Origin: Gilvimarinus gilvus
GTDB lineage: Bacteria; Pseudomonadota; Gammaproteobacteria; Pseudomonadales; Cellvibrionaceae
Assembly (NCBI RefSeq): GCF_030518155.1
Contig: NZ_JAULRU010000220.1
Coordinates: 1-64,000 of the forward strand
Direction of reading: 5' to 3'
DNA length: 64,000 nt
Part shown: in pieces, positions 44,854 to 48,478 of the stretch
Position numbering within the stretch: the first letter of the stretch is position 1
How the letters are laid out: each line of letters starts with the position of its first letter
Notes under the pieces: generated by a model
The model's database searches: none
What the model was told of the DNA's origin: nothing
Seen by the model: only the letters and a program-made list of their open reading frames with translations
Position numbers and translations under genes: made by a program

Positions 44854-47179
44854 TTAGAATTGATATAGGTAAAAGCGATAGCTGCTTTCAGCAACCAGCT
44901 CGTCGTCCGAGCCACCCACCATGAACAGAGCATCGTCATTGTTAAACTGCACGCCTTCATACATATATTGGTATTCGATAAAATTGTCAGGCACAGACAT
45001 AGCGTTCCAAACTCCGCCCCCCCCATCTAAGATACTTGGGGCCACCATCCCAATAAAACAATCTATTTCCACTGGCCGACATTCTCATTAGGCTTGCACT
45101 CTCAGCCAAGTAATAGTCTTCTTCCCTCACCCACTCTCCAGCCTGCATATTGTACGTAATGAAAAAATTCGCTCTCCTGCTAAACATAATAAACCGCGTT
45201 GCGTCCGCATTAACTTCCATGCCGAAATGGGCACCGTCTAATGCATCCATTTTGTCAATGACTTTTGCATCAAGCGCGGCCGACAGCTCCCACTGTTCGA
45301 GCTTTTCATAAACGTATACAGCACCAAAACACGGGGGAAACTCGCAGGTTTTAGGCGGAATATTATGTGCAACCATGCCAACCTTGGCCAGGTCTAGAGA
45401 GTCAGCCTCACTGTCATTTAAGTTTATTGCAGAAGCCAACAGTAGTTTTTCCCCATCTCTCGAAAAAGATATCGCATCATCTGTATTGTAGCCATCGATC
45501 AAATGCAACTTTTCTGCCGGCAACCAGCCATTATCTTTCCATTCAAAGGTAAACATCCAGTTAGCATAGACGAGCGCCACCTGTTTTCCATCGAACGAAA
45601 AGGCTGATCCGTGCACAGAATGCCAGTAGATGAGTCCCTCCATGGATTTCGCTAGTATTGAACTTTTTTCAGTTTTTTCCGACACATCAAAGTATCGAAC
45701 AATTACAGTTTCATCAGTGAATTCATGCGGGTTAGGATTATCGCCACAGCCTGCATAGGGCCCTTGTACTAAAGCCAACTTTTCACCATTGCCACTAAAA
45801 TTGGCCTCAATGATGAAATCGTAGCCCGTCACTTCAATAGTAAAGTAGTCTATCCACTCATCATTCTCTTCCCTCAGTATAATCACGGACCGGTCACACC
45901 GGTCTTCCTCCCCCACAGCATACAAAGCGACATATTCACCACTCTCAGAAAAAGCTAGTATTTCATAGTTACCCACATTAGCCTCAATTTTAGTACGGCC
46001 AATAGCATGACGAAAATTGCCCGGCAGCCCTTGCATACTTCCTTCCACACAACCCGTTATATTGCACGCCTCGACAACATAGGTATTGTTTACTGCATCG
46101 AGTAAGAAAACTGATACATTTTGCTTGTGACTGCCATCCTCAAACTCACCAACAATAGATCTTTCCCCAAACACATCAACTTCTATTACATTAAGAGCGT
46201 CTGCATGGTTCGGTAACGTCGCCTGGAATTCGAGTCGATTCTGATTAATGTAACGATACGTGTAATCAAAAGCATCGGGTAATGGTGGAAGTACCGCAAA
46301 CTCAACCGCAACGGTGCACGACTCTCGCAAAAATTCAATTGTGAAGGTATTGTCGATCAACTGCCCGTCACAGCCTGTCGCGGATTCCAGGTAGAAACCC
46401 TCTTCAGGTATAAGCTCAATCGCAGTGTTTTCACCATATAGCAACGCCGTCGGTAATCCTTGATAGCTACCATGCTCATTGACGTCTACCGTCACACTGA
46501 CAGGAACCGGGGCAAACTCGGCACTAACTTCGCAAGACTCAACAACCTCATCAATCTCAAAAGAAAGACCAATTAATGCACCGCCGCAGCCCGTTGCACT
46601 GATCAGCTGCTGGCCTTCGTTGGGAGTAAAATCAATGCTCAAAGACTCCCCTTGGCTCACCGTGGTCAGTGCCGGGGTTGCCATGCCATTGCCCGCTATA
46701 TTGACGACCACATCATAGTCAACGGCTGCTGAACTTAACGAATCCGAACTGTGGGAACTGAAAGATGAACTAGCAGGCTATTGAAAAACCCCAAGCGTAC
46801 TCAGGCTTTCAGGCTGGCTCGTAATCTAGGCGGCCTTTTGATGGTGTGTGTCCACCCATCGAAAAAGGGTAACGACGAGTACGGGCCAGCCTGAAAGCCC
46901 CGGAGGGCGTGGCCTGAAGCGCACATCTGCTGCGCCTTGCCTCTAGCAAAGGGAACCACCCTGTCCGTCGAGACAAGACACAACATCTGCACGCTTCAGA
47001 CTACGCTGAGCATGCATGAGGTTTTTCAACAGCCTGCTACACGAGGCCTGCCCGGATGAGCTTGATACCACACTAGCGCCAGCTCCGGAATTACCCGAGC
47101 CACCGCAAGCGGTTAAAAACAATATGACAATCAGCAGCAAGTACGCACTGACAGGCCGCGTTAGAAATTCGAGCATCAC
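44854..47179 (-). pseudogene. Beta-propeller-like lipoprotein gene, broken by a MITE and a frameshift
   Basis: The 5' part (47179-47039) encodes a signal with lipobox LTAC (Cys25) and the start of a Ser-rich linker. A 267-bp MITE (46771-47037) follows and introduces stop codons. After it the frame resumes at 46768 with more Ser-rich linker (SSFSSHSSDSLSSAA), two tandem ~80-residue repeats each with a TGC(G/D)G motif, then a ~400-residue region of beta-propeller-like strands (SESGEYVALYAVG, SGNGEKLALV, SRDGEKLLLA). A G8 run (C8 on plus, 45017-45024) shifts the frame; with one base fewer the reading continues to 44854. Restored length would be about 685 aa. Function unknown; probably a surface lipoprotein. 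A downstream fragment from 46711 could still be translated only if it has its own start. Confidence 0.8.
46771..47039. mobile_element. MITE (267 bp) with terminal inverted repeats
   Basis: Ends GCAGGCTATTGAAAAACC (left, from 46773) and its complement GGTTTTTCAACAGCCTGC (right, to 47037) differ at one position. The dinucleotide TA flanks both sides (46771-46772, 47038-47039) and looks like the target duplication. No transposase is encoded. It sits inside the Ser-rich linker of the lipoprotein gene; deleting it with one TA restores the reading frame. The TTGAAAAACC ends resemble those at the left window edge and at 61651. Confidence 0.85.
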
Positions 47180-47301
47180 TGTTCACTCCCCTCATCCATG
47201 CAATCGTTATTGGCGATGAGCAACTTATCTAGAATTGCTTGACGCAGAGGGTATCGGAATAAATGTTAAAAAACTGTAACGGGTACAATTGTTAACAAAT
47301 T

Positions 47302-47370
<69 letters not shown>

Positions 47371-47383
47371 TTTTATTTATATT

Positions 47384-48478
47384 TTAAAATGCGTAAGAAA
47401 GGCTAATATTAACGCCATCATCCAAACCTAGCTGATAGCCGTTATAATCCTCTTCAATACGGGTAATCCACTCAGCGCCTAAACGCAGTCCTGCAAAATT
47501 ACCGCCGGTTATCACAGTATTAATACCGATGCCCGCATCCAAAAATTCGCCACCATAATTGGCCTGTAAATCGCTTGGGCTACTGTGACCATGTGGACCG
47601 TTGTAGTGTCCGCTAATGGAGTCTTGCTCAGACCATTCAAGCCGCGCCGACACACTCATCCAGTCGAGTACACGAATGGCACTCCACACCGTAGCGCCAT
47701 ACTTGTCGCCAAAAGCAAAACCCGAATCGTTTTCGTTTTCGAGTCGAATTTCAGCGTTAGCCTGAGCGCCCCAACTCACTATGCCACTAAACCCTGTATA
47801 AGTAATCGAAGGTAGCGCGTCAAACGTACCACTGCCGAGCTGCATACCGTAATGAACAAAGCTGCCGTCGGCGTTCTTTTCATCAACACTACCGGTAGGA
47901 AGGCTCACCCCAAAGGTTGTTATCAGTTGGTGAGAAGAACTTGGGGTCCAGTTATAGAGGGCGCTGACCACGGTATCGCCCCAGCCCGAGGTGCCATGGC
48001 TATGGTGGTGATGCATATTCATCATATCGGCCATTCCGTCCATACCCGACATATCGTTCATATTGGGCATTTCACCCATATCTGACATCTCGGCGTGACC
48101 ATGTCCGGCCATACCGGTGGAAGCCATATCCATATCCATGCTCATGTACATAGGCATCAGCATCAACGTGAGGTTGTCGTTGGGAGCGTACATGATATCC
48201 AGCATGATCATATCCATGGTCATGCCCGTTGGCATCATCGAGAAACCGGCCATGGCCAGATCGTGTGCACTGGCCTCATCACTACCGTGAAACATACCGC
48301 TATAGCTGGAACGCAGATACCGGTAACCGGTCATAACCTCACCCTTTTTGTGGGTATGGTCAGCCATAACCCCTGCTGGCGCATGAGACTCGGGAACCGG
48401 GCCACCTTCGTGTGCCATAGAGGTGTTCGAGGCGGCGAGTGCAACAGCCAGAGCCAATCCGGTCAATTTTTGTTCCAT
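47384..48478 (-). CDS. Outer-membrane barrel-like protein with Met/His-rich insert
   Basis: 364 aa with a Sec signal peptide (ending MAHE near 23). Residues about 75-165 are extraordinarily rich in Met, Asp, Gly and His (MYMSMDMDMASTG, then DMSGMDGMADMMNMHHHHSH). The C-terminal 200 residues alternate hydrophobic and polar strands and end in Phe (ISLSYAF), as in small outer-membrane barrels. The Met/His content suggests Cu(I)/Ag(I) or other soft-metal binding; that is inference. Similar 'transporter' barrels occur near copper-resistance genes. A 19-bp palindrome lies upstream of it. Confidence 0.7.
   Translation of the reverse strand: MEQKLTGLALAVALAASNTSMAHEGGPVPESHAPAGVMADHTHKKGEVMTGYRYLRSSYSGMFHGSDEASAHDLAMAGFSMMPTGMTMDMIMLDIMYAPNDNLTLMLMPMYMSMDMDMASTGMAGHGHAEMSDMGEMPNMNDMSGMDGMADMMNMHHHHSHGTSGWGDTVVSALYNWTPSSSHQLITTFGVSLPTGSVDEKNADGSFVHYGMQLGSGTFDALPSITYTGFSGIVSWGAQANAEIRLENENDSGFAFGDKYGATVWSAIRVLDWMSVSARLEWSEQDSISGHYNGPHGHSSPSDLQANYGGEFLDAGIGINTVITGGNFAGLRLGAEWITRIEEDYNGYQLGLDDGVNISLSYAF

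Follow-up and report, generated by a model that had tools for sequence, protein, structure and literature searches.

A putative IS5-family MITE in a lipoprotein gene of Gilvimarinus gilvus, and relatives with a similar body under different ends

MITEs are usually taken to be relics of a single insertion sequence (IS), tied to the transposase of that IS. According to the sections of a review available to us, they are mostly IS derived, are moved in trans and typically form stable folds (PMC10969869). Within the portions of the literature at hand, the nearest described element to the one reported here is MITEPsy1 of Pseudomonas syringae pv. phaseolicola, which was attributed to ISPsy2 (IS5 family) and for which transposition was shown (PMC3189936). 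The extracts of its description that we used record a non-coding element with IS5-type ends that disrupts genes and duplicates 4 nt at CTAG or YTAA, as does the family studied here, and its right end (GTATCCTCTGAAAAAGCC) is close to the second of the two end types treated below (PMC3189936). Compared by that description, MITEPsy1 has 100 nt and 18-nt terminal repeats, whereas our element has 263 bp and 31-nt repeats, and a MITEPsy1 insertion adds 104 nt and shifts the reading frame, whereas the element here adds 267 (PMC3189936). For the Chunjie MITE of Geobacter uraniireducens, the excerpted text allows comparison of size and copy number, and in these it is similar, with 235 bp and about 38 copies, of which one disrupts a gene (PMC10969869). 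REP elements of the GTAG/CGTC families, in the part of their description available, are likewise small palindromic repeats, and the core here has a GNAG beside a hairpin, but our element differs from them in having terminal inverted repeats that are long and target duplications of 4 bp (PMC3733652). Given the available parts of the MITEPsy1 paper and of the MITE review, a folded IS5-family MITE inserted in a gene is of a type already known, and gene disruption is ordinary.

Insertion in the serine linker of a lipoprotein gene

The element lies in a 64,000-nucleotide stretch of the G. gilvus contig NZ_JAULRU010000220.1 (the window). Our explanation, which we hold as a whole with high confidence, is that a non-autonomous 263-bp IS5-family MITE would have transposed into a CTAG where a lipoprotein gene encodes its Ser linker, with a 4-bp duplication and with the product cut short at 78 residues, that it would have been moved in trans by an IS5-family transposase working on its ends, and that the helper was presumably lost from this genome and the gene inactivated. 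The element would at the same time be a member of a wider group of 260-300 bp elements from marine Gammaproteobacteria that have in common a body capable of forming a four-way junction and that bear different IS5-type ends. Since a matching transposase was not found in its own genome, the copy is now probably fixed and the gene a young pseudogene. The features of the insertion are as follows.

44987..46769, minus strand: 3' part of the split gene, with the remaining linker and ~590 aa without a Pfam match (frames, Pfam search)
46770..46773, no strand: left target copy, CTAG (sequence; 4-bp YTAR duplication across 98 elements)
46774..47036, plus strand (orientation by the central motif): putative MITE, 263 bp, with type A ends CAGGCTRTTGAAAAACC (inverted ends, genome copies, family flanks)
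47037..47040, no strand: right target copy, CTAC, its last base unlike the left copy (sequence; family duplication)
47041..47179, minus strand: 5' part of the split gene, with signal peptide, lipobox LTAC-G and the start of the Ser linker (frames; aligned with the G001 and G007 orthologues)

The element interrupts the minus-strand gene within Ser-linker codons, and the two gene parts flank it, as the first-pass annotation had described for a Ser-rich lipoprotein gene. When the flanks are joined, a frame of 641 codons plus a stop (642 with the stop) results whichever flanking 4-mer is retained, so the in-frame join that it proposed stands; the serine codons at this join hold with CTAG retained (Ser-Ser), while its own join, through CTAC, reads Ser-Cys. 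The insert including one target copy is 267 nt long, a multiple of 3, and as had been noted it carries stops: the unjoined upstream frame runs for 78 residues, of which 47 are gene derived, before it stops within the element. Searches of the 3' part against PDB, Pfam and NCBIfam gave no significant match. Neither of the two syntenic orthologues compared, in the same-genus genomes G001 and G007, carries the same 267 bp; both have uninterrupted Ser linkers without the insert, and blastn of the element against these two loci gave no match. Gene order is kept in both (a Met-rich membrane-protein gene and the lipoprotein gene, with a transporter gene also kept in G001), and overall identity of the split-gene product to the orthologues is low, at 37% (G001) and 30% (G007). 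The G001 orthologue has a frame break of its own after the first 207 codons (in L110, a stop at 1561 and the following frame starting at 1627), which is either real decay or an assembly error, and the gene may therefore be dispensable for other reasons. Between the split gene and the next gene lies a perfect heptamer array, GATGCGG in 4.7 copies (47303-47335), which may be a tract prone to slippage, located upstream of the lipoprotein gene.

The matching terminal repeats reported in the first-pass annotation were recovered as 34-nt inverted repeats (46771-46804 and 47006-47039) with 85% complementarity. The same annotation placed the insertion at a bare TA; TA does stand on both sides of the window copy, but the family target is a 4-bp, YTAR-like duplication. 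Among 103 elements drawn from many genomes, 98 could be anchored; their flanking 4-mers were identical in 42 and non-identical in 56, where shuffling gave 13.3 identical pairs on average, and the 42 comprise 24 CTAG, 6 TTAA and 12 non-palindromic pairs (e.g., TTAG/TTAG, CTTG/CTTG). We take a 4-bp duplication of YTAR type to be the target rule of the IS5 group. The element proper is therefore 46774-47036, although the imperfect duplication of the window copy (CTAG/CTAC) makes TA alone also compatible with this one copy. The flanking TA would suit a TA-targeting MITE of the IS630/Tc1-mariner kind as well, a reading to which we give hardly any credence given the 4-bp duplications of the family, the absence of a DDE_3 (PF13358) match from all 8 genomes searched, the own genome included, and the presence of identical ends on IS5-family elements.

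The own genome (G000), a 4.78-Mb draft assembly in 852 contigs, holds at least 57 BLAST matches to the element at E≤0.001, with at least 41 places (self included) matching at least ~130 bp and at least 28 matches covering at least ~240 of 269 positions, numbers obtained from the 40 candidates, out of 104, that were scored. The end motif GCAGGCTRTTGAAAAACC occurs there 106 times with up to 2 mismatches, against 0 in a reversed control. The element is a dispersed repeat, with chance excluded, in agreement with its earlier annotation as a MITE, and it also occurs elsewhere: a whole-element match at E≤0.001 was found in 11 of 58 relatives, own genome included. Compared with its nine nearest sub-family copies (identity >90%; the close copy L003, mutated in its centre, was left out), the window copy has 3 private differences over 263 aligned positions, where these nine have 2 to 14. 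With few private differences and both gene halves still open, the insertion looks young, as had been proposed before.

An open frame on both sides that is restored by joining, together with a young insertion, could also point to a reversible switch, as suggested in the first-pass annotation, in which precise excision and re-insertion of the MITE would turn the lipoprotein on and off. Four observations make this very improbable indeed. No matching IS5 transposase was found in the own genome; among the 31 type A copies examined there, only the window copy clearly splits a long frame (47 + at least 500 codons), the other 30 including weaker cases (125+133 and 324+43 codons); the flanking 4-mers CTAG and CTAC are unequal, so that precise loss is not favored; and the one assembly shows no excised allele.

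Other copies in the own genome vary in arrangement. Two MITE copies lie close together at C264:52858-53374, very short derivatives of ~80-90 bp at C464:163767-163853 and C332:67209-67286 retain both ends, and a second MITE family has ends CTAGGGAGCCTCTGATTAAGTCC and the same core (e.g., L103 and L101).

IS5-type ends and the helper transposase

Judged by its sequence, the element is a non-coding MITE of the IS5 family, because IS5-family insertion sequences carry the same ends and because of the 4-bp family duplication; the link to a helper is through ends, about 20-26 bp long, that it shares with elements of other genomes rather than of its own. A 34-nt end query matched 13 plasmid records. 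Six of these plasmid regions were opened, and four hold IS5-type elements of ~1.3 kb with such ends on both sides (two from Pandoraea, one each from Paraburkholderia and Thiolapillus); the Rhizobium and P. aeruginosa regions among the six showed no partner end. The Pandoraea and Paraburkholderia elements measure 1341 bp counted from TA and have CTAG on both sides, with agreement between their two ends at 24/26 and 21/26 positions, and the Thiolapillus element has a duplicated TTAG. Two of the plasmid-element transposases score 278 and 272 bits for transpos_IS5_4 (NCBIfam cut-off, 140). These elements thus resemble ours in the terminal motif TAGCAGGCTGTTGAAAWACC and in the CTAG or TTAG duplication, but they differ in being 1.3 kb long with a transposase and in the sequence inside the ends, where the MITE body was not seen just within the IS ends compared.

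The second end type found in the family (type B) is borne by another IS5-family element, in G029, with ends GGAACCTCTGAA and TAG/TAA-type flanks; G029 has five intact transposase copies, with a transpos_IS5_4 score of 341 bits. A 35-nt type B query had no match in plasmids and a 44-nt query none in phages, exact end patterns occurred 0 and 0 times in viral contigs, and the whole element gave no match to plasmids at E 0.1.

The first-pass annotation had called for a genome search for full copies and the helper; full-length-like copies were found, as given above, and the helper transposase was not. Both a search with a Pandoraea-type transposase (P0001) and a transpos_IS5_4 (NF033581) profile search gave 0 matches in the own genome, and the element of its single DUF772 protein has other ends (GAGACTGTAGAAA, about 1.8 kb). 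As the assembly is in 852 contigs, a collapsed or lost IS contig is possible. Candidate autonomous partners were sought as inward end pairs 0.5-4.5 kb apart in fetched loci. One, at C257:7740-8920 (1181 bp), was rejected given that its ORF list, inspected by eye, held no transposase-like frame; another, an inward end pair on C505, proved to be two neighboring MITE copies.

Among 15 genomes searched with IS5_4, 8 gave some match and 2 passed the cut-off (G029 and G022). G003, G037 and G039, with 27, 26 and 21 core motifs, gave 0, 0 and one sub-threshold match, respectively. Most of the element-rich genomes searched are without an IS5_4-type transposase above the cut-off.

The folded body and its distribution

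The body of the window copy may be divided into the following paired segments, all given on the plus strand.

46774..46804, plus strand: left arm of stem P1 (terminal inverted repeat), inner end CTCAG at 46800-46804 (inverted repeat, core pairs)
46805..46898, plus strand: hairpin P2 (inverted repeat 46804-46826/46877-46899, 91%; core pairs)
46899..46907, plus strand: mini-hairpin P3, CCC-GGA-GGG, the middle loop base being A, C, G or T among relatives (core alignment)
46908..47005, plus strand: hairpin P4 (inverted repeat 46907-46943/46970-47006, 73%; core pairs)
47006..47036, plus strand: right arm of stem P1, inner end CTGAG at 47006-47010 (inverted repeat, core pairs)

The central motif CCTGNAAGCCCCGNAGGGCGNGSCC, with 2 mismatches allowed, was found in 15 of 58 relatives (0 in controls), with 47 occurrences in the own genome. 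When 84,980 species genomes were scanned with this motif, at least 96 stretches were obtained, with Gilvimarinus, Alcanivorax, Alloalcanivorax, Porticoccus, Saccharophagus, Pseudomaricurvus, Microbulbifer and Marinobacterium, as well as a Pseudomonas and several MAGs, among the matches listed. A script assigned terminal repeats to 80 of these stretches, at least two of them plainly wrongly (L207 and L270), and none to 16, many of which are near contig ends. Two elements from the same-genus genomes G002 and G003 reappear, with their ends and flanking sequence retained, in contigs of G. agarilyticus JEA5 and G. xylanilyticus HB14. Altogether, at least 103 distinct elements of 240-300 bp were collected, falling into 27 clusters at 80% identity, and core segments are present in 96 of the 103 and in 24 of the 27 clusters.

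The fold of the window copy is stronger than that of 200/200 shuffles, with z-scores of -8.3 for the DNA plus strand, -13.9 for RNA of the minus strand and -9.0 for RNA of the plus strand. For 22 cores, a gap-free four-way junction pairs 92.3% of cells, compared to a shuffled mean of 86.9 that none of 500 shuffles raised to this level; 9 junction pairs changed on both sides, compared to 5.1 in shuffles (reached by 1/500). The covariation score of the junction was 0.183, compared to 0.096 for shuffles (reached by 0/500) and 0.014-0.059 for slid versions, a comparison with the slid versions that is biased in favor of the junction since the structure was derived from the same 22 sequences. P3 is invariant and therefore says nothing on pairing, and P4 is the weakest stem (84.5% paired, with pair 37-52 unpaired in 11/22 cores). 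By these measures the body is capable of forming a four-way junction, and its pairs show compensatory changes. In the G007 element L148, the central 9-mer is CCCTCCGGG; this is CCCGGAGGG inverted, as though the loop of the mini-hairpin had been flipped. Across the 27 clusters, wobble-type mismatches on the core strand number 42 G.T versus 14 A.C in P2, and 26 G.T versus 59 A.C in P4, with the opposite bias.

Such a fold might indicate that the element is kept as a structured RNA, either regulatory or enabling read-through of the split gene. In the window copy, RNA of the minus strand, which is the gene strand, has the more extreme of the two RNA z-scores, its central loop reads C(UNCG)G, and the minus strand is the more stable one in 70/103 elements, many of them related. 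The strand is inconsistent, however, with 33/103 elements showing the opposite, the wobble-type mismatches point to different strands in P2 and P4, L148 has its central loop flipped, and Rfam covariance models gave 0 matches in 46000-48000 at E≤1 and 0 for 7 loci at the gathering score; we consider an RNA role very unlikely. An intron-like or bypass reading of the split gene was likewise rejected, as the frames that span insertions elsewhere are found on either strand with respect to the core; frames of at least 200 codons on both sides occurred in 6/94 elements, a test that is only suggestive since the best of several offsets was chosen.

Similar bodies under two end types

Of 96 bodies, 29 are of type A by their ends, 61 of type B and 6 of neither. 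As the A and B labels are defined by the ends themselves, it is the high body identity that is informative. The body of the window copy (type A) is identical to that of the type B element L234 from Alcanivorax hongdengensis at 191/211 positions without a gap, with agreement at 13 of the outer 27 bp. Alcanivorax sp. DSM 26293 holds both end types within one genome, in L204 (A) and L241 (B), whose bodies are identical at 193/211 positions and whose outermost 10 positions agree at 3 and 4. At body identities of 0.90-0.95, the mean end identity is 0.58 for A-B pairs (4 equal-length pairs, three of which share L234) and 0.84 for A-A pairs (47 equal-length pairs).

We tentatively propose, at rather less than even confidence, that these are end-switching MITEs, in which a conserved body, folded into a gap-free four-way DNA junction with a d(C-GNA-G) mini-hairpin, persists and has had both terminal repeats replaced together. 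The replacement is inferred from the shared body under two end types, and because both ends would change together, an element could come under another IS5-family transposase. One end might be altered by recombination or template switching with the end of a resident IS, and palindrome-directed repair through the long stem might then copy the altered end to the opposite end. The arms could also stay paired, with no need for selection, through palindrome correction alone.

An alternative is that the ends diverged fast and independently on an old common element, as might be read from the same length and register of the two end types and from some shared positions. We regard this as less likely than not, given that A-A ends stay similar at the body identity at which A-B ends do not and that each end type matches the ends of a different IS5-family element. 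If end switching is correct and ends can be exchanged, a MITE family can persist after its helper is gone. That a nearly identical 211-bp body should occur with two different sets of ends, which match two different IS5-family elements, is in any case unusual in comparison with the single-IS-relic view. In the one literature collection searched, as represented by the excerpts it supplied, neither a description of this element nor a case of one body with exchanged ends was recognised; the type A end motif had no occurrence in the text of that collection, and the matches listed for other motifs of the element group look unrelated by title.

The genome of Alcanivorax sp. DSM 26293 also holds three fragments of IS5-type transposase genes at contig ends, which score below the family cut-off. 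Each lies near an end GGAACCTCTGAAAAACTCC, which agrees at 19/19 positions with L234 (left end) and L206 (both ends), elements of other Alcanivorax genomes, and at 15/19 with L241 from the same genome. The proximity of the fragments to such ends suggests that this strain harbors a helper approximately of the type B kind.
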